A stretch of DNA of 23,306 bases from a virus, in the IMG/VR virus record IMGVR_UViG_3300032304_000037, positions 1 through 23,306 of that record. One strand, given 5' to 3'. The notes beneath the pieces are model-generated. The model worked only from the letters and a program-made list of their open reading frames with translations, made no database searches and was not told where the DNA came from. Position 1 is the first letter of the stretch; each line of letters starts with the position of its first letter. Shown here piece by piece: positions 6,965 through 17,640 of the stretch. Position numbers and translations under genes: made by a program.

Positions 6965-9964
6965 ATGGCAACGACAGAGCCAATCCTCGTATCCATTCAG
7001 GCTGATGTTCAGCAACTTAAAAACGGATTAGCGCAAGCGCAAAACTCTCTCAAAGGATTGGGCGATAGCGTCAAACAATCCGGCAAATCCATGGACGACT
7101 TTGTAGGCAAACTTAAGCAAGTCGGAGCTACTTTAGGCGTTACTTTCGGTGCTACTGCGGTGCTTGGTTTTCTTAAAGCCTCAGTAGCCGATGCTAATGC
7201 AGCAGCAGCAGCACAAGATAGATTGCGTCAGATCCTTCTCACGACAGGCGGAGCTACTAACGATTTTGTAGATAGTCTCATAGCCCAAGCAGAGGCGTTG
7301 GAACAAGTCGGTGTAGTGACTGCCGATAATGTCTTGGTAGCCCAATCACAATTAGCGACTTTCGATCTCACCGGCGACACGATCAAGACTTTGACCCCGG
7401 CAATCTTAGATTATGTCACAGCTGAGAAGGGCGCTGCTGCGACCGCTGATGATTTTAGGCAGATGACTAACGGCCTTGCGCAAGCGCTCAACGGAAACTT
7501 CGGGTCTCTCACTCGAGTCGGATTTGTTCTTGACGATCAAACTAAGAAATTGATTTCTAGTGGAACAGAGAGCGAACGAGCAGCAGCGATCGTAGATGTA
7601 TTGAACTCTACCTACGAAGGTTTTAACGAGACTCTACGCGACACAAACCCAATTGCAGCAGCCAGAGCAGATCTATCAAAATTGCAAGGAGATATAGGCA
7701 AGGCACTATTACCGGCGGTCAAAGCCGTCAGCGAGTTTATTAGCACTCAATTTATTCCTGCGCTAAGAACTTTTGGCAAATTTATTAAAGATAACGCAGA
7801 TATTCTGGCCACTTTGACTATCGCTTTGGGTGCTGCTTATGTGGCTATGAAACTTTATCGCGGTATGGTAGTGATCACTGCTATCGCTTCGCAAGTCTAT
7901 GCAGTAGCAACGACTCTTATGAAAGGCGCTCAACTAGCCAGCATAGCCTCAACTAATGGACTCGCTGCTTCGATGCTTGCGCTCAACGCTGCTATGAGAG
8001 CCAACCCAATAGGAGTAATTGTCACCGCGCTCGCGTTGGTCGCAGCAGCCCTAGTGATTGCGTGGAAGCGATCCGAGACATTTAGAAATGTGGTTATCAC
8101 AGTAGCACAAGCTGCGTTGAAGGCTTTCGCTGCAATCGTTCCTATTATTGGTAAAGTGGCTGAGGCCGTTCTTAAATTGGTCACTGGGCCAATGCGAGGA
8201 TTTCTAACATTATTGTCTAAACTTCCCGGAGTAGGAAAGTATGCACAAGCAGGTTTGGATTTCATAAACAAAGGTCTAGACGGCGTATCTGATTTTGCTG
8301 ATACTGCTGCTAAAAAAGCAACTGAGTTATCAGCCGGCCTAGATAAATTACGCAAAAGTGCTACCAAAGCCGGAGAAGAAGTAGAAAAAGCCACTAAGGG
8401 TGGAGGCGGTGGAGGCGGAGACAAAAACGGAGGTTTAACTGACGAAGAAAAAGCAAAGCTTGAAGATTACAAAAAGAGCGTCAAAGATATTTACAAAGAT
8501 ATGAACGAAGTTATTGCTGACGCTAATGATCGCATGCAAGAAGCGACCAAGGATCGTGACGAGCGTATTGCCGAGGCTAACAAGCGCTATTCAGAGACAG
8601 TAGCCGATCTCAATAAGCGCTATTCAGAAGCATTGGCTGATGCTCAATTACGCTATGACGATGCAGAGATAGACGCACAAAAGACTTACGCCAAAGCACT
8701 AGCAGATAACGCAAAAGATTACGCCGATAAAGTCGCAGACATAGAAGAGAAACTGCAAGACAAAATATTAGATTTGCGCGAGAAGGCTCTGGAGAAGACG
8801 CAAGACCTGAATAGAGCTGCTACCGAAAGACAAGCTTCGATCGTCCAGCAATCTATGGATCGTCTTCGCTCCGCGTTCAACTCTGCTCTTAATCTAGATA
8901 ATTTTGTAAAGGGATCTAGCCCTAAGAACATGATCAAGCAATTGCAAGATGTTCTCAATGGCGCTAGAAAATTACAACAAAACGCTGCTGCTCTCGCGGG
9001 CATGGGTTACTCACAGACCTTTATCGAGCAGGTAGTGAAGAACGGCCCACGCCTCGGCAACAAAATCGCCGAAGCTCTCAAGAACGCCTCTCCTGAGACC
9101 AGTGAGAAACTTAAAGCGCTTTATATGGAAGTCGAGACCATTTCGAACACAGGAATGGACGACCTAGCCAAGACTATGAACGCCGGTGGCAAACTAGCGA
9201 CTCAAGAACTCATGGACGAATACAAGAAAGTCGCCACGGATCTTAAAGACTCTCTTGCCGAAGTAGATAAAGAACTTAGCAAGAGCCTCGCAGAAGCCCA
9301 TACAGATTATCGAAATGCAATCGCTGACGCTCAAGCGACAAGTATGGAACGCTTGGCTGACGCTAAGGCTCGCATGGATGAGGCTATCGCTAACGCTCTC
9401 CAAGCATTAACAAGATCCCGCGCCGAGGCCAAAAAGAACCTAGACGAAGGATTGGCAGAGGCCACTAAAACTCTTACTGAGTCATTAGCCGAGACACAAA
9501 AGAAATACGGCGAGGCTATCGATCAGATCAACAAAGACACTATGAAGAAGCTTGCAGATCTACAAGCCAAATTAGCCGAGGTTGCTGCTGCTATGGCTGC
9601 ACTTGGCGCTGCTAACGCTGCTGCTGACGCTCTAAGAAACGCTCCTAAATTTACGCCTTTCACTCCTGTGACTCCGGTAGTTCCTCCAAAAGACTCAAGC
9701 GGTAATTACATTCCTTACGGATCTCCGGGATCTGTAAAGCCCGGCGATAAAGGATTTATTGGGCCAGTTGCCGTAAATAATGTGAATATCACAGGCTATA
9801 ACTTAACCTCTCCTGCTGCGACCGGAGCTGCGGTATCTAATCAACTCAAATATGGATCTACTGTCAATACGACCACGCTGGCTGGTATCCTAGCTGCGAG
9901 CGCTCCTAAAACTACTACTCCTAAAGTCGCTCAATCATTAAGCGCTAATTTGAGGGATAGATAA
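6965..9964 (+). CDS. Tape measure protein with hendecad coiled coils
   Basis: The longest gene here (999 residues), between chaperones and distal tail protein. It sets tail length and may form a DNA channel at injection. Residues 1-270 are mostly helical. Hydrophobic, membrane-like segments lie near 280-320 and 349-367 (IGVIVTALALVAAALVIAW). A seven-glycine hinge (about 479-485) leads into ten exact 11-residue repeats (519-628), a mixed helical segment (629-758), and eleven more 11-residue repeats (759-879). The C-terminal 120 residues are Pro/Thr-rich and non-helical, perhaps the part cut off or bound at the tail tip. Length, position and layout make the call safe; no peptidase or lysozyme domain is visible. 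Confidence 0.92.
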   Translation: MATTEPILVSIQADVQQLKNGLAQAQNSLKGLGDSVKQSGKSMDDFVGKLKQVGATLGVTFGATAVLGFLKASVADANAAAAAQDRLRQILLTTGGATNDFVDSLIAQAEALEQVGVVTADNVLVAQSQLATFDLTGDTIKTLTPAILDYVTAEKGAAATADDFRQMTNGLAQALNGNFGSLTRVGFVLDDQTKKLISSGTESERAAAIVDVLNSTYEGFNETLRDTNPIAAARADLSKLQGDIGKALLPAVKAVSEFISTQFIPALRTFGKFIKDNADILATLTIALGAAYVAMKLYRGMVVITAIASQVYAVATTLMKGAQLASIASTNGLAASMLALNAAMRANPIGVIVTALALVAAALVIAWKRSETFRNVVITVAQAALKAFAAIVPIIGKVAEAVLKLVTGPMRGFLTLLSKLPGVGKYAQAGLDFINKGLDGVSDFADTAAKKATELSAGLDKLRKSATKAGEEVEKATKGGGGGGGDKNGGLTDEEKAKLEDYKKSVKDIYKDMNEVIADANDRMQEATKDRDERIAEANKRYSETVADLNKRYSEALADAQLRYDDAEIDAQKTYAKALADNAKDYADKVADIEEKLQDKILDLREKALEKTQDLNRAATERQASIVQQSMDRLRSAFNSALNLDNFVKGSSPKNMIKQLQDVLNGARKLQQNAAALAGMGYSQTFIEQVVKNGPRLGNKIAEALKNASPETSEKLKALYMEVETISNTGMDDLAKTMNAGGKLATQELMDEYKKVATDLKDSLAEVDKELSKSLAEAHTDYRNAIADAQATSMERLADAKARMDEAIANALQALTRSRAEAKKNLDEGLAEATKTLTESLAETQKKYGEAIDQINKDTMKKLADLQAKLAEVAAAMAALGAANAAADALRNAPKFTPFTPVTPVVPPKDSSGNYIPYGSPGSVKPGDKGFIGPVAVNNVNITGYNLTSPAATGAAVSNQLKYGSTVNTTTLAGILAASAPKTTTPKVAQSLSANLRDR
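8519..8848 (+). repeat. Ten 33-base (11-residue) repeats in the tape measure gene
   Basis: Residues 519-628 divide without gap into ten 11-residue units such as RYSETVADLNK, RYSEALADAQL, RYDDAEIDAQK, TYAKALADNAK and DYADKVADIEE. The 11-residue period points to a right-handed or straight coiled coil rather than the usual heptad type. Confidence 0.85.
9239..9601 (+). repeat. Eleven further 33-base (11-residue) repeats in the tape measure gene
   Basis: Residues 759-879 divide into units such as DLKDSLAEVDK, ELSKSLAEAHT, DYRNAIADAQA, NLDEGLAEATK, TLTESLAETQK and KYGEAIDQINK. The last unit (KLAEVAAAMAA) is degenerate. The phase is unbroken across the run. Confidence 0.82.
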
Positions 9965-10836
9965 TGAGTATTACTTTAACGGCAGAGTATTCGTTCTCCT
10001 TCAACGATCAAGTTTTTGGTGGCGCAGGATCTCCGTATCAGATCCAATCGGTAGATGGCCTCGAGGGAGTTCCTCCGATCCGCGCCCAAGACGATAACCG
10101 AGGCTACGCTGACGGAATGTTCTCCGGTAGAGATTTCTATGCCGGTCGTACTATCTCTATGATCCTTTTGGTTCTAGGATCAGACGACAACTCTGCTCAG
10201 GTCAATATGCAAACTTTGCAACGAGCGCTTCTTCCTCAGCAATCCGGAACTACGCCTTTGTATTTCTCTTTGCCACATAGCACCGGAGACATTACGCAAG
10301 TAATCAACGCTCGCGTTCGTGCCTTCCAGACGACTATCGACCCTAATTATACTTACGGGTATATCGTAGTCAGAGTCGAATTCTTCTGCCCTAATCCGAG
10401 CTACTTTAACGCCAACACTCAGACCGCTTTATTAGGCTACTTTCCTCCTACCGGGCGTGTCTATAACCGAACATACAATCTAGTCTATGATCCGGCTACG
10501 CTAGTCAAGACAACCACTATTAGCAATAACGGCTGGGCTACTACTTACCCGGTCATCTCCCTTAATGGCCCAATCGACAACCCAATCTTAGGCAACGAGA
10601 CTACAAACGAATATCTCAACTTCACAGTATCTATGGATAGCAATGATGTTCTCGTTGTCGATCTTTACAATAAATTGATTACATTAAACGGCGTATCTGC
10701 TCGTAATCTATTGACCTCCGGAGTTTGGTTCGCAGCTCCTCCGGGGAATTCAATCTTTACTCTTGAAGGAGATGTCGGCTCTACGGTAATCAATCAAACT
10801 GTCGCTACGATAGAATTCCAATCAGCATACATTTAG
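9964..10836 (+). CDS. Distal tail protein (Dit-like)
   Basis: A 290-residue beta-rich protein directly after the tape measure (TAATG overlap), the usual place for the ring that links tail tube and tip. The N-terminal part contains YQIQSVDGLEGVPPIRAQDD and GRTISMILLVLG. Then comes TTPLYFSLPHSTGD and YTYGYIVVRVEFFCPNPSYF, which matches the common Dit pattern in which a strand ends at 'F.cpdP.ff'. The C-terminal half resembles a galectin-like beta sandwich (STFTLEGDVGS-type ending, here IFTLEGDVGSTVINQTVATIEF). It is the hub to which the following fibres would attach. Confidence 0.82.
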   Translation: MSITLTAEYSFSFNDQVFGGAGSPYQIQSVDGLEGVPPIRAQDDNRGYADGMFSGRDFYAGRTISMILLVLGSDDNSAQVNMQTLQRALLPQQSGTTPLYFSLPHSTGDITQVINARVRAFQTTIDPNYTYGYIVVRVEFFCPNPSYFNANTQTALLGYFPPTGRVYNRTYNLVYDPATLVKTTTISNNGWATTYPVISLNGPIDNPILGNETTNEYLNFTVSMDSNDVLVVDLYNKLITLNGVSARNLLTSGVWFAAPPGNSIFTLEGDVGSTVINQTVATIEFQSAYI

Positions 10837-10843
10837 GAGAACA

Positions 10844-11758
10844 ATGACTCTACATACACCTCCGAGTTGGTTACAGAACGCCTCTCACCCGGCTGAGAAC
10901 GATCGTTTAACAACTCAGGCACTTTGGGCTACTACCGGCATTATCAATCCTGCTTCGCTCGCGGTGACTGCTAACTCTCCTGCTGCTATGAATGTTTATG
11001 TCGCTGACGGCTGGGCTGCAATTGTAGGAACTACTCAGGCCGACATGGGTACTTATGTGGCCTATAACGATGACCCTGTATTACTTACAATAACTACGGC
11101 GAACCCTACTAATCCGCGCCGAGATCTAATTTGTATGACAGTCAATGACTCTTATTACTCTGGAGCACTCGACAATGTCGTATTGCAAGTCATAGCAGGA
11201 ACTCCTGCTGCTACTCCAGTAGTACCTTCTACACCGGCCAACTCAATTGCTCTCGCTTCGGTTTATGTGGCTGCTGGTGCTACTTCGATCAACACCGGCA
11301 ATATCACGGATCTTCGCGTGTCGGTGACTACTAATCTTCCTATTGGAGACATCACTGGTGTAACTGCGGGAACTGGATTGACCGGCGGAGGAACTTCTGG
11401 AACTGTAACTCTGGCTATTGACTCAACTGTGGCGCTAAAAAATCTTCCAATCAACGCGCAAACAGGAACTACCTATACGACTGTTCTCTCAGATAACGGA
11501 TCGTTAGTTACTCAAACTAACGCGTCTGCTATTGCCACAACTATTGCTCTTAACTCCTCTGTCAATTATCCTGTGGGCGCACAAATTACTTTTGCGCAGC
11601 TTGGAGCAGGTCAGGTGACTATTTCTGGAGCAGGTGGCGTGACTGTCGTATCTACCGGTGCGACTGCTGCTGCTCCTAAATTACGCGTTCAATATTCGAC
11701 CGCTACTGCTATTCAGACTTCGACAAACAATTGGCTAGTGGTCGGTGATATCTCGTGA
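10844..11758 (+). CDS. Tail fibre / minor tail protein with GDITGVTAGTG module
   Basis: A 304-residue protein with a good ribosome site (taggaga). Residues 1-165 form a domain seen in many actinobacterial phage minor tail proteins: HPAENDRLTTQALWATTGI, later PRRDLICMTVNDSYYSGA, then ALASVYVAAGATSI. From residue 168 a second module starts, GDITGVTAGTGLTGGGTSG, a classic beta-helical fibre linker. It is followed by a C-terminal domain with STGATAAAPKLRVQYSTATA ending in WLVVGDIS. The same module recurs in the gene at 12009. It probably forms a trimeric fibre or adaptor at the tail tip. The stop overlaps the GTG start of the next gene. Confidence 0.72.
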   Translation: MTLHTPPSWLQNASHPAENDRLTTQALWATTGIINPASLAVTANSPAAMNVYVADGWAAIVGTTQADMGTYVAYNDDPVLLTITTANPTNPRRDLICMTVNDSYYSGALDNVVLQVIAGTPAATPVVPSTPANSIALASVYVAAGATSINTGNITDLRVSVTTNLPIGDITGVTAGTGLTGGGTSGTVTLAIDSTVALKNLPINAQTGTTYTTVLSDNGSLVTQTNASAIATTIALNSSVNYPVGAQITFAQLGAGQVTISGAGGVTVVSTGATAAAPKLRVQYSTATAIQTSTNNWLVVGDIS

Positions 11759-12012
11759 GTCGCTTAGCCTTAACTCCTACTAATGTTCCGGCTTCTGCCA
11801 CGGATATTTCTACGCCTACGCTTCGTGCCGGAGATCTATATTTCAATACTTCTACTGGGCTTATGGTTTATACCGGCTCAGCTTGGTCTCAAGTATCTAC
11901 TGATGCTTTGATCACCGAGATAGATGCTGGCGTGTTTGATAGTATTGCTCCATATAGCGGAGGCGATCCGACCACAACGGCAACTCAATCTTTTGAGGGA
12001 GGAACTCCATGA
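11755..12012 (+). CDS. Small fibre-associated protein with GDLYFNTSTG motif
   Basis: An 85-residue protein that begins at GTG in a GTGA overlap with the fibre gene before it. Its core RAGDLYFNTSTGLMVYTGSAW is the short beta motif seen at the ends or junctions of many phage fibre proteins, and a similar motif occurs in the gene at 17413. The C-terminus (IAPYSGGDPTTTATQSFEGG) is polar and may be a flexible linker. It ends in an overlap with the next gene. It is probably a fibre connector subunit, though it may also be a piece of a formerly longer fibre protein. Confidence 0.6.
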   Translation: MSRLALTPTNVPASATDISTPTLRAGDLYFNTSTGLMVYTGSAWSQVSTDALITEIDAGVFDSIAPYSGGDPTTTATQSFEGGTP

Positions 12013-12644
12013 GCGTAGTAACACAGATCCAAGTACGCCGGGGTACGGCTTCTCAATGGACTTCTTCTAACCCTACTTTAGCTGCGGGCGAGTTCGGCTT
12101 TGAAACCGACACTAACAAACTTAAGTGCGGTAACGGAGCTACGGTGTGGAACTCTCTGGCCTATCTGAACAATGACGGAGACATTACCGGCGTAACTGCG
12201 GGTACTGGTATCTCAGGTGGCGGAACATCAGGCACAGTCACAGTATCAATTAATACTAGCGTTACCGCAGATCTGACTACCGCGCAGACTTTGACTAACA
12301 AGACTCTGACCGATCCTAAAATCAACCTTGCCTTTGACGCTGAGACTGCTTCTTATACGGCCGTTCTGGCTAATAATGGTCAAGTAGTCACAATGGACAA
12401 CGCTTCTGCCAATACATTTTCTATTCCTACAAACGCCTCTGTTGCGTTCCCAATCGGCACACAAATAAATGTGCTACAAATAGGCGCAGGGCAAACAACT
12501 ATTCAGGCCGTCACAAGCGGAACGACTACAATCCAATCGACCGGTGCGACTTCAGCAGCTCCAAAACTTAGAGTGCGTTATAGCGCAGCTACTTGCCTAA
12601 AAGCCGGAACGGATCTTTGGTATGTGTTTGGAGATATTGCCTGA
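12009..12644 (+). CDS. Receptor-binding tail fibre with Mtd-N-like domain
   Basis: A 211-residue protein. Residues 4-52 (QIQVRRGTASQWTSSNPTLA then GEFGFETDTNKLKCGNGATVW) closely match the N-terminal beta-prism domain of the major tropism determinant of Bordetella phage (Mtd_N), found on many phage receptor-binding proteins. From residue 57 comes GDITGVTAGTGISGGGTSGT and a C-terminal domain (STGATSAAPKLRVRYSAATC ... LWYVFGDIA) paralogous to the end of the gene at 10844. It likely attaches to the tail tip through its N-terminus. No C-type lectin domain and no diversity-generating retroelement are visible. The start overlaps the previous stop (ATGA) and the stop overlaps the next start (TGATG). 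Confidence 0.75.
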   Translation: MSVVTQIQVRRGTASQWTSSNPTLAAGEFGFETDTNKLKCGNGATVWNSLAYLNNDGDITGVTAGTGISGGGTSGTVTVSINTSVTADLTTAQTLTNKTLTDPKINLAFDAETASYTAVLANNGQVVTMDNASANTFSIPTNASVAFPIGTQINVLQIGAGQTTIQAVTSGTTTIQSTGATSAAPKLRVRYSAATCLKAGTDLWYVFGDIA

Positions 12645-13201
12645 TGCCTATTCTTGGAGTCATTGACTCAGCCAAATCTGGAAATCTTTATGCTGCCTCT
12701 TATGAGTCTATTGCAACTATAAATTTTGCTATTGATAGTGCAGGTTTCGATTTTGCAAACATTCCACAAGTTTATCAACATCTAGAATTAAGGTTTGTAA
12801 CTCAATCTAGTTTATCTGCAACTCTTGATAATCTTGCTCTTTATGCAAATAATGACACATCAAATGTTTATAGCACTCATTCTTTGTACGGTAATGGTTC
12901 ATCAGTGACATCGAATGCCTTTACGACACAACCGCGTATTTATCTTCCTTCCATAGTGTCTGCTAATCTGACTGCACAATTTACTGTTGGAATCATACAA
13001 ATTCTTGATTACACAAATACAAATAAATTCAAAACCACTAAAACTTTTAGCGGTTTTGATGCTAATGGATCGGGCATTACAGGTTTTTCATCAGGCTCAT
13101 TTCAATCCACTAGTGCCATTACACGATTTAGTGGCGGAACATCTGCCAACATTAAAGCAGGTAGCACTTTTGCACTATACGGAATTAAAGGAGTTGTGTG
13201 A
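12644..13201 (+). CDS. LYGI-module protein, array copy 1 (putative adhesin)
   Basis: The ATG at 12644, inside the preceding stop (TGATG), is preferred over an earlier in-frame ATG at 12593 that would overlap the previous gene by 52 bases. The 185-residue product has a short extra leader (MPILGVIDSAKSGNLYAAS) and one module: YESIATINF..., IPQVYQHLELRF, GNGSSVTSN, IIQILDYTNTNKFKT, closing with STFALYGIKGVV. Alternating strands and the 'S.IP..Y..L.' and 'LYGIK' ends suggest a beta-sandwich, lectin-like unit. I recognise the pattern from many aquatic phages but know no named function. The gene is clearly more AT-rich than the genes upstream. Confidence 0.7.
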   Translation: MPILGVIDSAKSGNLYAASYESIATINFAIDSAGFDFANIPQVYQHLELRFVTQSSLSATLDNLALYANNDTSNVYSTHSLYGNGSSVTSNAFTTQPRIYLPSIVSANLTAQFTVGIIQILDYTNTNKFKTTKTFSGFDANGSGITGFSSGSFQSTSAITRFSGGTSANIKAGSTFALYGIKGVV

Positions 13202-13722
13202 TGCCTAGTACTTACACTCCAATTGCTACCAGTACAGTTTCAGGAACAAGCACTTTTCAAGTCACATTTTCAAGTGTTTCGACAACATATACAGATATAG
13301 TTTTAATTGTGTCTGCTCGTTCTGATTTTGCAAGTGTAAGTGACCAATTATTATTTAGAGTTGGAAATGGAACACTAGACACAGGGAATAATTATTCAAG
13401 AACCGAGTTATATGGTGACGGAGCTTCCGCGCTATCAACGAGAGCAAGCAACGATAGTTGGATACGCGCAGGATTTGCTATTCCGGGAGCGTCTACTGCA
13501 TCTGGAACATTCTCGACAAATATAATGAATTTAATGAACTATTCAAATACCTCAATCAATAAAACTTTCTTATTGAAAGGTGGAGCTGTAAGTGGTTGGA
13601 CTACTGCTTATGTCAATTTATGGAGAAATACGGCAGCAATCAATACAATACAAATCTTTTGCGGTAATGGAAATTTTGTGGCTGGTTCAACAATGACTCT
13701 TTATGGAATAAAGGCGGTGTGA
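13201..13722 (+). CDS. LYGI-module protein, array copy 2 (putative adhesin)
   Basis: The ATG at 13201 is used, with its A shared with the previous stop (TGATG); a GTG directly before it is in frame but less likely. The 173-residue product is a single module: TYTPIATSTVSG, FSSVSTTYTDIVLIVSARSD, YSRTELYGDGASALSTRASN, LWRNTAAINTIQIFCGNGNF and the end GSTMTLYGIKAV. It shares these landmarks with the copies on both sides but has only limited overall identity, so the duplication is old or the copies were acquired separately. It is AT-rich like copy 1. A carbohydrate-binding or receptor-binding role is inferred from location. Confidence 0.7.
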   Translation: MPSTYTPIATSTVSGTSTFQVTFSSVSTTYTDIVLIVSARSDFASVSDQLLFRVGNGTLDTGNNYSRTELYGDGASALSTRASNDSWIRAGFAIPGASTASGTFSTNIMNLMNYSNTSINKTFLLKGGAVSGWTTAYVNLWRNTAAINTIQIFCGNGNFVAGSTMTLYGIKAV

Positions 13723-13723
13723 C

Positions 13724-15031
13724 ATGGCTAATACATACAAAGCCTTACAAACTGTAACTGTTGGCGCTGGTGGCGCAGCGAGTATTACCTTTACTGGAAT
13801 TCCTCAAAATTATACCAATCTAGTAATTAAAACAAGTATGAGAACGGCATATGCTGGCGTGTACGATATTCTTAACTTACAGTTCAATGGTGGTGGAATT
13901 TATCTTGCTACTAGAAATTTATACGGTACTGGTTCTGCAGCAGCATCAGACAATATAAATGTTGGATCATCTGTTTATTGGGCTGGATATGTACAAGGAA
14001 ATAGTGGCACAGCAAACACATTCGGTAATGACGAGATCTATATTCCAAACTATGTAGCTGGAGTTAACAAATCTTTTTCTTATGATATGGTTGTAGAAAA
14101 TAACGCAACTGCGAACATAATGACTTTAGGTGCCGGTCTTTGGTCTAGCACTACTCCAATAACATCAATCAATTTGTCATCAGCAAACGGTTCGAACATT
14201 CTGCAATATTCAAGCTTCACTCTTTACGGAGTATTTAACGCTGATGTATCTGCTGCTCCAGCGACTCCTACGATCGGAACTGCATCAGACGGCGGAACAG
14301 GCGATAGCGCGTCAATCACATTCACAGGCGTATCAAACGCAGCTAGTTACACGATGACTTCCACTCCGGGATCATTCACGGCGACCGGAACGGCAAGCCC
14401 TATTGTGGTTTCAGGATTGACTGCTGGAACTTCTTATACTTTCAAGGTTAAGGCTAACAATCCTTTCGGATCAAGCGCGGAGTCTGATGCGTCTAACTCA
14501 GTCACGATCGTAGCTGCGGGAGTGTTCGAGTCTATTGCTTCTCTTAGCGGAACCGGATCTAGTGGAACTATTAGTTTCACTTCTATTCCGTCCACATACA
14601 AACACCTGCAAATTCGTTACAACGCTCGTTGCGCGTCAGGTGCGATCACAGATCATTACATCAAACTCAATAACGATAGCGGATCTAACTACTCACGACA
14701 TTGGATGTTTGCTCTGGACTCAGGTGGCCCATACACATCTCAGGCATCAACCACGACACCGCCTTCAATGGGATATGTTCAAGGGTATGACACTAATCCA
14801 ACTACTGGCGCAATTATTGATATTTTAGATTATCAAAGCACATCTAAGAACAAAACAATTAAATACATTACAGGTGGCGATGAGCAATCAACTTCATCAC
14901 AAGGAGCTATGGTGATCGGTTCTGCTTTGTGGATGAATAACACAAATGCAATTAATCAGATTGACATTACATTAGCCAGCAGCAACTTCTCAACATCTAG
15001 TACATTTTCGTTATACGGAATTAAGGGGTAA
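13724..15031 (+). CDS. Two LYGI modules joined by an FN3 domain, array copies 3 and 4
   Basis: This 435-residue protein carries array module 3 (residues 1-170: YTNLVIKTSMRT ... LWSSTTPITSINLSSANGSN ... FTLYGVF). A fibronectin type III domain follows (about 176-262: SASITFTGVSNAASYTMTS, SGLTAGTSYTFKVKANNPFG). Array module 4 occupies residues 267-435 (FESIASLSG, SIPSTYKHLQIRYNAR, IIDILDYQSTSKNKTIKYI, STFSLYGIKG). FN3 domains are common spacers in virion proteins. Base composition changes along the gene: the ends are AT-rich, while about 14250-14760 looks like the phage core. It starts 1 base after the previous stop. Confidence 0.75.
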   Translation: MANTYKALQTVTVGAGGAASITFTGIPQNYTNLVIKTSMRTAYAGVYDILNLQFNGGGIYLATRNLYGTGSAAASDNINVGSSVYWAGYVQGNSGTANTFGNDEIYIPNYVAGVNKSFSYDMVVENNATANIMTLGAGLWSSTTPITSINLSSANGSNILQYSSFTLYGVFNADVSAAPATPTIGTASDGGTGDSASITFTGVSNAASYTMTSTPGSFTATGTASPIVVSGLTAGTSYTFKVKANNPFGSSAESDASNSVTIVAAGVFESIASLSGTGSSGTISFTSIPSTYKHLQIRYNARCASGAITDHYIKLNNDSGSNYSRHWMFALDSGGPYTSQASTTTPPSMGYVQGYDTNPTTGAIIDILDYQSTSKNKTIKYITGGDEQSTSSQGAMVIGSALWMNNTNAINQIDITLASSNFSTSSTFSLYGIKG

Positions 15032-15034
15032 GCA

Positions 15035-15541
15035 ATGGCAATCACATACGAACCAATTGCTACTACTACGCTAAGTGGTACTGCTACATCTATTACATTT
15101 AGTTCTATACCAAATACCTATACTGATTTGGTCGTCTCTTGGACGGCTTTAGCCAGCACCGCATCGTATCAACCTGCCATTAGATTTAACGGAGATAACG
15201 GCGCAAATTACAATATGCTAGAACTTTGGGGAGATGGAACAAGTCCTTCGTTCGCCACAGAGAGAGACACTTCATATATTAACGCAGCACGAGGTTCTTC
15301 TCTTAGTACTACAATACCTGAATTTACTGAGTTTAATATATTTTCTTACGCTGGTTCCACATACAAAACTGCAATTAACAAATACGCAGGAGATAACAAT
15401 GGAAGTGGTGTGATCGAAATAACTGTTGGCCTATGGCGCTCTACTGCTGCAATCAATTCACTCACACTTGTTAGTGCTAATGGTGCACAATCTCTTGCTG
15501 CTGGAACGATCGCCACACTATACGGAATTCGGAAAGCATAA
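15035..15541 (+). CDS. LYGI-module protein, array copy 5 (putative adhesin)
   Basis: A 168-residue single-module protein: MAITYEPIATTTLSG, FSSIPNTYTDLVVSWTALAS, NYNMLELWGDGTS, GLWRSTAAINSLTLVSANGA, ending TIATLYGIRKA. The opening (atggcaatcacatacgaaccaattgct) resembles the openings of copies 2, 3 and 6, and the end (ctatacggaatt) matches copies 1 and 4 at the DNA level. It is 3 bases from the previous stop. It is AT-rich relative to neighbouring structural genes. Confidence 0.7.
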   Translation: MAITYEPIATTTLSGTATSITFSSIPNTYTDLVVSWTALASTASYQPAIRFNGDNGANYNMLELWGDGTSPSFATERDTSYINAARGSSLSTTIPEFTEFNIFSYAGSTYKTAINKYAGDNNGSGVIEITVGLWRSTAAINSLTLVSANGAQSLAAGTIATLYGIRKA

Positions 15542-15542
15542 A

Positions 15543-16055
15543 ATGGCAGCTACATACAAACTTATTTCATCTAATGTTCTTGGTACTGCTGCTGCGACAG
15601 TAGCATTTTCAAGTATTCCTAACACTTATACCGATCTAGTGTTCAAGATTACTGCTAGAAGTAATGCGACTAATGCTGGTATATACGACACGGGGTATTT
15701 TTTTGACGGCACTACTTTTAGCAATACACAACTTCTAGGTACAGGTGCTGCAAACACCAGTAGTCGAACGACTGGCTCACAATCCACGGGTGGAGCAATC
15801 TGGACACCCAATGCGAACTCGACTGCCAATACATTCTCTAATATTGATGTTTATTGGCCAAACTATAATTCTACTGTTAATAAACAAATTAGAATCTCGA
15901 CTGCAGTGGAGACAAACGCTTCGGGAGGAGCACTCGTAGAGTCGGCTTTACTGTGGCAAAGCACGAGCGCTTTAACTAGCGTAACATTATTTTGCGGTAA
16001 TGGTAGTTTTGTCTCAGGTTCATCGTTCTATTTGTACGGAATACTAAACTCATAA
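15543..16055 (+). CDS. LYGI-module protein, array copy 6 (putative adhesin)
   Basis: The ATG at 15543 sits 1 base after the previous stop and gives a 170-residue product. An earlier in-frame ATG at 15426 lies deep inside the preceding gene and is unlikely. Module landmarks are YKLISSNVLG, FSSIPNTYTDLVFKITARSN, LLGTGAANTSSR, LLWQSTSALTSVTLFCGNGS and SSFYLYGILNS. The 'FCGNG.F..GS' and 'TYTDL...ARS' strings are closest to copy 2. It is the last unit before normal base composition returns. Confidence 0.7.
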   Translation: MAATYKLISSNVLGTAAATVAFSSIPNTYTDLVFKITARSNATNAGIYDTGYFFDGTTFSNTQLLGTGAANTSSRTTGSQSTGGAIWTPNANSTANTFSNIDVYWPNYNSTVNKQIRISTAVETNASGGALVESALLWQSTSALTSVTLFCGNGSFVSGSSFYLYGILNS

Positions 16056-16065
16056 AGGAGAAAAA

Positions 16066-16302
16066 ATGACAACAGATACACCAATGGCGGTCGAAGTCAA
16101 TTGCGCAACCGGAGAACAAATTGTTCGCCCTTTGACTGCAGACGAGATCGCTGAACGCGCTCAGCAAGCAGAAGCATTTGCAGCTGAACAAGCAGCAGCA
16201 CAAGCAGAGGCACAGGCCAAGGCTGATGCTAAACTAGCTGCTCAGGCTAAGTTACAGGCTCTTGGACTATCTGGAGAAGAAGTAGCAGCTCTCACCGAAT
16301 AA
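16066..16302 (+). CDS. Small Ala/Gln-rich coiled-coil protein after the fibre array
   Basis: A 78-residue protein with a strong ribosome site (aaaggag). The N-terminus has VEVNCATGEQIVRPLTADEI, a pattern found in short phage proteins next to fibre genes. The rest is a continuous Ala/Gln/Glu helix (EAFAAEQAAAQAEAQAKADA). It ends with GLSGEEVAALTE. The layout recalls fibre assembly or fibre-attached chaperone proteins, and its place just after the receptor-binding array supports a link. The exact role is unknown. Confidence 0.65.
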   Translation: MTTDTPMAVEVNCATGEQIVRPLTADEIAERAQQAEAFAAEQAAAQAEAQAKADAKLAAQAKLQALGLSGEEVAALTE

Positions 16303-16315
16303 CTAGGAGGTAATC

Positions 16316-17413
16316 ATGCCGGTCACGACCTACCGATACCTCATTGCAAACCTAGTTACAAACGAGATAATTGCAGAGCTTCCCTTCACCGGAGTCTCCT
16401 TCACTCAGCAGTTAAATCAGGCTGGAAACTTTCAGGGTCATATCTTGATTGGTGGAATAAACACGGCTGAGTTCAATATTGACGAGGCTACTGTTCCTAT
16501 GAAGAACGCTATCTATGTGGATCGTAATGGCGTTCTTGTATGGGGCGGAGTGATTTGGGCTAGATCCTATAACTCGACAGATCAGCAATTATCTATTCAA
16601 GCGCGTGAGTTTATCTCGTACTTCGAGCGCCGAAGAATCATTGAGACCATAGATTATTACCAAGAAGATCAGTTGGTTATAGCCAGCGATATCATCACCG
16701 CTGCTCAGGCCGTACCTAACGGAGACATTGGCCTCCTTTTAAATACTGAAGGCGAGACTACTTCCGGTGTTCTAGTAGATCGCGTATATTACGATTACGA
16801 ACTGAAGCCGGTCTTTGGCGCTATCCAAGATCTCTCACGCCAGTTAGACGGCTTTGATTTCCGAGTAGATGTTTATTACGACAACATTACCGGGCTACCC
16901 GTAAAAGCGTTTAATACTTACTTTCCTCGATCCGGCGACCCTCTCAATATTCCGGTTTGGATCTTTCCTGCTGGAAACACAGTCGAGTACGAATATCCCG
17001 AAGACGGAGCTACGGCAGCGAATACAATTTACGCTCTTGGAGCGGGATCTAACGAAGGCAAATTGATAGCCGTAGCGCAAGATGTGGCTAAGTTCGCTGA
17101 GGGCTGGGCGCTCCTAGAAGATAGCGCTAACTATTCAGATATAGATGACGATGTGGTTCTCCAGCAGCTTGCTGACGGCCAAGTTCTAGCGGTCGCCTAT
17201 CCTCCAACTACTCTTAAACTCGTTGTGCCTCCCTTTGTAGATCCGGAGTTTGGAACATACGACATTGGAGACGATGCTCGAATTATGATCCGCGATGTGC
17301 GCTTTCCTAACGGCTTAGATGAGTTGTATCGGATCGTAGGTCTAACAGTAGAGCCGGGCGAAGACGGCCCAGAACGCGTTACGCTTACGCTAACTCAAGG
17401 AACAGGTGCGTAA
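16316..17413 (+). CDS. ReqiPepy6 Gp37-like tail tip hub protein
   Basis: A 365-residue protein with a near-perfect ribosome site (taggaggt). Features typical of the Gp37-like/baseplate hub family are visible. These include an early strand pair with SFTQQLNQAGNFQGHILIGG, an AIYVDRNGVLVWGGVIW segment, the QLSIQAREFISYFERRRI motif, and a long beta domain followed by RIVGLTVEPGEDGPERVTLT. In many actinobacterial phages this protein lies right after the distal tail protein; here the fibre genes are in between. It probably forms the hub of the tail tip. No hydrolase motif is visible. Its stop overlaps the next start (TAATG). Confidence 0.78.
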   Translation: MPVTTYRYLIANLVTNEIIAELPFTGVSFTQQLNQAGNFQGHILIGGINTAEFNIDEATVPMKNAIYVDRNGVLVWGGVIWARSYNSTDQQLSIQAREFISYFERRRIIETIDYYQEDQLVIASDIITAAQAVPNGDIGLLLNTEGETTSGVLVDRVYYDYELKPVFGAIQDLSRQLDGFDFRVDVYYDNITGLPVKAFNTYFPRSGDPLNIPVWIFPAGNTVEYEYPEDGATAANTIYALGAGSNEGKLIAVAQDVAKFAEGWALLEDSANYSDIDDDVVLQQLADGQVLAVAYPPTTLKLVVPPFVDPEFGTYDIGDDARIMIRDVRFPNGLDELYRIVGLTVEPGEDGPERVTLTLTQGTGA

Positions 17414-17640
17414 TGGGGTACATAAATCAGCCGTTCGATCTTCGTATCTTTGCTCAAGATATTTATGCGCGACTTAATAAACTCGAGACCGCGCAAAGAT
17501 TTACTGCGCCGGTAGTCAATTTTGCCACTTCTACCCCGAGCAATCCTCGTCAGGGAGATATCTTTTACGATACAAACTCTCAGCGCTTGGTTTATTGGAA
17601 CGGCGTAGCTTGGTTCAAATTGACTCAAACCGCTTTGTAA
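17413..17640 (+). CDS. Small tail-tip protein with GDIFYDTNSQ motif
   Basis: A 75-residue protein in a TAATG overlap with the hub gene. It has an N-terminal helix (FDLRIFAQDIYARLNKLETA) followed by the short beta motif RQGDIFYDTNSQRLVYWNGVAW, which is related to GDLYFNTSTGLMVYTGSAW in the gene at 11755. A helix plus this motif fits a small trimeric cap or adaptor on the tail tip. Function is inferred from motif and position only. Confidence 0.62.
   Translation: MGYINQPFDLRIFAQDIYARLNKLETAQRFTAPVVNFATSTPSNPRQGDIFYDTNSQRLVYWNGVAWFKLTQTAL

Follow-up and report, generated by a model that had tools for sequence, protein, structure and literature searches.

The stretch of DNA analysed here, called the window, is an entire IMG/VR record of 23,306 bases and possibly a genome fragment. 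Its structural region is siphophage-like, with genes for a tape measure protein, Dit, minor tail proteins, a Tal-like protein, and an endolysin. Five adjacent genes on the + strand (g1 to g5), spaced by gaps of -1 to +3 bases, are flanked by the Dit and Tal-like genes, the tail-tip gene position of a receptor-binding cassette (Table 1). Together they encode six modules of about 165 aa each, two of which lie in g3 and are joined by an FN3 domain (Pfam fn3, E = 2e-4 over residues 190-258, a score below the gathering cut-off). The G+C content of g1 and g2 (12644-13722) is 36-38%, against a window mean of 46%. Two minor tail proteins upstream (10844-11758 and 12009-12644) have their last ~100 residues in common at about 50% identity (...GATAAAPKLRVQYSTATA...WLVVGDI), and relatives retain this C-terminal region even where they have no LYGI array. 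Short proteins encoded at 11755-12012 and 17413-17640 share a motif (DLYFNTSTG.MVY.GSAW / DIFYDTNSQRLVYWNGVAW) known from phage tail proteins.

Table 1. Features of the array and its flanks in the window; A, B, and C are the module types described in the text.
Feature	Position	Strand	Basis
Dit-like distal tail protein, upstream anchor at the tail tip	9964..10836	+	phrog_5577 4e-29, phrog_33 Dit 3e-24, Pfam SPP1_Dit 4e-9
Mtd_N-containing minor tail protein, directly upstream of the cassette	12009..12644	+	Pfam Mtd_N 4e-16; phrog_8780 minor tail protein 1.5e-15
g1 N-terminal leader MPILGVIDSAKSGNL, probable docking peptide	12644..12688	+	same kind of leader opens unrelated proteins in relatives
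g1, trio 1 type A, module about 12692-13189	12644..13201	+	type-A profile 129 bits vs 96 and 75
g2, trio 1 type B	13201..13722 (GTG alternative start 13198)	+	type-B profile 136 bits vs 98 and 109
g3, C of trio 1 + FN3 linker + A of trio 2	13724..15031	+	type-C 154 bits, type-A 151 bits
Parts of g3	type C 13733-14233; FN3 about 14237-14521; type A 14522-15025	+	
g4, trio 2 type B	15035..15541	+	type-B profile 147 bits vs 108 and 102
g5, trio 2 type C	15543..16055	+	type-C profile 124 bits vs 82 and 78
78-aa helical/coiled-coil-like protein, trio-linked	16066..16302	+	presence/absence across Dit-Tal regions
Tal/hub-like minor tail protein, downstream anchor	16316..17413	+	phrog_1885 1e-55

Comparison with phmmer linked all six modules as homologues (27-78 bits over nearly the full length), a pair being accepted when it was recovered in at least one direction or via a third copy. 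A search of the record with g5 retrieved four other copies at E = 5e-24 to 2e-9, and the best pairs were g1 with the second module of g3, g2 with g4, and the first module of g3 with g5. This linkage bears out an earlier note on this DNA, which had described six homologous modules in five genes between 12644 and 16055; the shared landmarks it named are real in the module alignment. It had treated the modules as a loose set of copies, overlooking that they are of three types in the repeating order A-B-C-A-B-C. Apart from the FN3 domain in g3, the array genes had no match in Pfam or NCBIfam and none to a PHROG at E < 0.1, while the family consensus weakly matched phrog_31512 and phrog_14820, both of unknown function.

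Relatives were collected through the Tal-like protein and Dit, which are independent of the module, as well as through LYGI DNA patterns, and their modules were counted with an iterated profile. Among 98 complete, non-redundant arrays on viral contigs, 90 read A-B-C and seven A-B-C-A-B-C, and lone modules occurred in none; the remaining array (L144, 'AC') has two modules above the cut-off and a middle B copy at 47 bits. Profiles for the first, second, and third positions, trained on 20 trios from the Tal/Dit set, returned A-B-C for 59 of 59 three-module arrays outside the training set and A-B-C-A-B-C for all seven six-module arrays, the window among these. By this typing g1 is A, g2 is B, g3 is C followed by FN3 and A, g4 is B, and g5 is C. 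Mapped onto a tree built from 70 modules, the labels for position required 12 changes, compared with 37 in shuffles, a position-specific phylogeny of consecutive sister genes like that of Dishui Lake virophage 2 (DSLV2), discussed below. The strict A-B-C unit is the strongest new point of this analysis.

Incomplete arrays are prefixes or suffixes of the A-B-C order, with the sole exception of L293, which, like L329, looks like a frame-shifted trio. In L163, A and B lie within one ORF and the end of A is missing, probably through a chimera or a deletion. One possible exception to the rule is L233, which carries an extra, divergent B-like copy (59 bits); it has four modules in the profile typing and A-B-C in the count of 98 arrays, the two handling redundancy differently. 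The module is present in over 170 viral loci, and the trio holders form a large, mainly freshwater phage group. A scan of genome contigs disclosed a frame-shifted trio on an 8.4-kb contig of a Polynucleobacter MAG and one further match, in Treponema, that is unrelated.

The three types also vary together: their distance matrices correlate at 0.64-0.71 over 159 trios, where the permutation maximum was 0.23. At 21 non-redundant loci with a Tal homologue, the mutual correlations of A, B, and C were 0.47-0.51 and those with Tal 0.04-0.15. This co-variation also follows from joint inheritance of the genes.

The earlier note had likened the array to a cassette bank. A bank of independent single-module adhesins, each with its own receptor, would agree with the swapping of the array between close relatives, with its great sequence diversity, and with the presence of two different trios in one phage. 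We nevertheless regard it as very improbable, given that copy number is three or six, the order is always A-B-C, none of the 98 arrays is a lone module, and the types are distinct and co-vary; a random assortment of modules was rejected on the multiples of three and the constant order. The related suggestion of a mixed repertoire may hold for the two different trios of the window, and is not supported for single modules. A recent duplication of the trio in place was likewise rejected: the two trios of the window are 30-40% identical and have their nearest relatives in different phages, so the second is either old or acquired.

An AlphaFold2 model of g5 is an 11-strand all-beta domain (pLDDT 89.4, pTM 0.86), and the same kind of strand order recurs in all three domains of a trio model, as anticipated if the copies share one fold. 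Foldseek against the PDB gave no match to the module at E <= 1e-3, with TM 0.36 or less among the matches listed, and a profile search of PDB sequences with the module found nothing; a known lectin fold was rejected on these grounds. Several of the PDB Foldseek matches were beta-sandwich lectins of the laminin G/galectin kind, and at a single-domain TM of 0.36 or less among the matches listed they are not significant and the window modules are not members of that class. In the viral structure library BFVD, Foldseek retrieved 136 predicted proteins at E <= 1e-3, including some annotated as collagen triple helix repeat, Stf side-tail-fibre repeat, or glycine-rich proteins. These have the same predicted fold (TM by query about 0.68-0.93) and are other proteins of uncultured phages, of unknown function and likened to the module by fold alone. 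Collagen and Stf-type fibres are usually trimers. The oligomeric state of the module thus rests on analogy, since no solved structure resembles it.

The trio model was built from an artificial A-B-C polypeptide of L198, read through the stop codons, with 32 aligned rows. The alignment combined full triples with A-B pairs and left out single modules and B-C pairs, which MAFFT misplaced; six rows are full triples, and only these cover chain C. The resulting model reached pLDDT 87.8 and pTM 0.86 over 499 residues, and pLDDT fell below 50 nowhere but in the linkers. Had the three domains been placed independently of one another, pTM should have been much lower; the model therefore predicts that A, B, and C pack in a defined way, as judged by the pTM of this artificial chain.

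Residues specific to the types alternate along strands 29-36, 100-107, 116-124, and 132-140 and thereby mark one face of a sheet (p = 0.003). Column 28 holds H in A and D in B and C; column 32, R in A; column 102, D in A and Y in C; column 116, R in A, L in B, and S in C; and column 118, L, R, and D in A, B, and C, respectively. Several of these are switches of charge or polarity at one place (columns 28, 116, and 118). Type-specific residues gathered on one face have the look of chain interfaces in a hetero-oligomer, and function-specific surfaces could also give this pattern.

The types differ in their termini as well. Only type A has an N-terminal leader, usually with about 20-35 residues before the module compared with 5-10 in B and C. 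The start of g1, MPILGVIDS, resembles that of a 453-aa protein in the nearest relative of the window (L087/L006), MPILGVIASS; the leader is common to both and the remainder unrelated, and the DNA alignment of the two phages ends at 12665, inside the g1 leader. In many relatives the first gene of the block opens with the MPILGVI leader, whether or not the module is present, and a conserved N-terminal leader is thus combined with an exchangeable distal part (LYGI, FN3, or glycine-rich proteins), as in adhesin cassettes. This arrangement suggests that the leader anchors the protein to the tail. In L036/L159, L038, L043/L044, L077, and L330, MPILGVI gives way to a second leader type, S.K.G..S.S.LVGN..F, which is common to glycine-rich proteins and type A modules.

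Extensions of more than 150 aa past the module were found in 0 of 170 type A copies. Among the 18 intact trios with such extensions, 15 have them on both B and C and three on C alone, with none on B alone; where examined, these C-terminal extensions are glycine-rich. Median start-stop spacings of +1 (A-B) and -1 (B-C) would be suited to coupled translation. Downstream, the gene for the 78-aa protein follows 85 of 88 arrays, and it is present in 22 of 22 Dit-Tal regions with a trio and in 0 of 41 without one. Its product is a candidate chaperone or assembly factor.

These features bear on a division of the three types into specialised homotrimers (A3, B3, C3) at separate places of the tail tip, such as a series of stacked collars and the tip itself. 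Most phage fibre tips are homotrimeric, stacked or tip placement would also fix number and order, and a division of labour would fit the distinct conserved types, their constant order, and the large C-terminal domains borne in some phages by B and C and not by A. With the leader on A only, however, B and C would need another way of docking; moreover, the modules have matched chain-specific faces, the A-B-C read-through chain is predicted as one body, and trios double as whole sets. Separate homotrimers therefore appear unlikely to us, although not negligibly so.

Exchange of the block is evident between close relatives, as the earlier note had supposed. In pairs of phages with Tal 89-98% identical, the modules are just 20-60% identical (L052 and L038, for instance, share 98% in Tal and 39-45% in the modules), and in the window's nearest relative, with Tal 97% identical, the whole array is absent. 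DNA identity between the window and that relative is 83-94% on the left side up to 11,337 and 68-70% up to 12,665; the stretch 12,665-16,324 is unalignable, after which identity is again 90%. In place of the array the relative encodes one 453-aa FN3-FN3-glycine-rich protein and a 129-aa partner. In these sequence comparisons the trio with the small downstream gene is the unit of exchange. In addition, 76 complete trio arrays occur at loci without a detectable homologue of the window-type Tal or Dit (e.g., L164, L198, L208, and L235), some of them adjoining other tail-fibre genes; the cassette therefore seems to have spread across phage groups.

Alternative cassettes (13023-14740 in L087; also L008, L017, L043, L077, and others) encode glycine-rich proteins (PF21722, phrog_2295) paired with a MAHFAE-type ORF of 97-143 aa (phrog_7759, unknown function), and where B and C of an array are fused to glycine-rich domains, the MAHFAE ORF and the 78-aa gene occur together. 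A diversity-generating retroelement (DGR) target was considered and rejected on the domain and fold searches; no Mtd-type variable domain was reported in the six modules, and Mtd_N belongs only to the upstream gene.

Fast variation and swapping are typical of host-recognition genes, not of scaffold. The Dit-Tal position would also suit proteins that serve only to build the tail tip (as collar or hub decoration) and take no part in receptor binding, and in those phages where the outer domain is glycine-rich the modules may be just its stem. Because the block trades places with FN3/glycine-rich proteins and diverges much more quickly than Tal does, we consider a purely structural role improbable; position and exchange together point to receptor binding by the trio.

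Considering these data, we propose that A, B, and C probably form a heterotrimeric receptor-binding head that is swapped whole, and that the window encodes two such heads in series. The heterotrimer is the most economical reading because it accounts for the number and order of the genes, the single leader per trio, the chain-specific faces, and the FN3 bridge in g3. In this model the array would specify two tail-tip heads, each composed of three sister chains whose modules form a single trimeric beta head at the fibre tip, with one sheet face of each module holding the chain-specific contacts. Chain A would dock on the tail through its short N-terminal leader, the leaderless B and C would reach the tail through assembly with A, and the 78-aa protein may help the trio assemble. 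Host contact could be made by variable loops or, in some phages, by the glycine-rich C-terminal domains that B and C bear. In the window, the FN3 linker would connect the C chain of trio 1 to the trio 2 A chain and so tether the second trimer, which would need no leader because it is joined to the first in this manner. The cassette of A, B, C, and the small gene would be exchanged whole, also against unrelated adhesins with the same leader. The broader proposal, of a widespread, obligate three-paralogue adhesin in which A anchors and B and C can bear tips, inherited and exchanged as a four-gene cassette and present in the window as two FN3-bridged copies in series, stands in our view at even balance.

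A precedent for such an assembly is DSLV2, in which the consecutive tail proteins QIG59353-QIG59355 form a 1:1:1 heterotrimer, as revealed by co-purification; they group in trees by position, and receptor binding was proposed (PMC12724248). The two systems share three consecutive sister genes of similar length in fixed order with position-specific clades, although the complex is only predicted here. The DSLV2 proteins are T4 gp37-like, contain the collar domain PF07484, and sit on a virophage capsid, whereas the window module belongs to tailed phages, where it lies between Dit and Tal, may occur in two sets, and is swapped together with a small downstream gene. A Pfam search found PF07484 in no array protein; since this domain defines the family, the window proteins are not members of it. 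If the heterotrimer model is right, they would work like the DSLV2 trimer. In Alteromonas phage A5 a fibre and its cognate chaperone, an adhesin gene with a small partner gene, are reported to have moved together between distant phages (PMC10579305), a mobility like that seen here; such homotrimeric tips are encoded by one fibre gene, whereas here there are three obligate sister genes. A search of titles and abstracts in the open literature found no heterotrimeric or consecutive paralogous adhesins in tailed phages.

The trio is also carried by two cultured Planktophila phages, LanE43AprE7 and AprF5 (OX376640 and OX376641; PMC10202952), which infect the same host, 'Ca. Planktophila' LanE-43. 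The E7 trio has a 74-aa homologue of the 78-aa gene on its downstream side and, ahead of A, two glycine-rich proteins whose leader resembles that of A; E7 and F5 are 96.6% identical over the trio region. These isolates make a direct test of the model possible. Fibre tips of tailed phages are generally taken as homotrimers, in which a change in one gene alters all three faces. If the proposal is true, a three-chain head would let a phage set different binding surfaces side by side and would explain the strict multiple-of-three gene number; how the right 1:1:1 assembly is selected would then become a question, with the 78-aa protein as a candidate. Nanopelagicales are an abundant freshwater order of actinobacteria. 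Given the more than 170 loci and the two cultured Nanopelagicales phages, the module would be relevant to host range in a virus-host pair of very high abundance.
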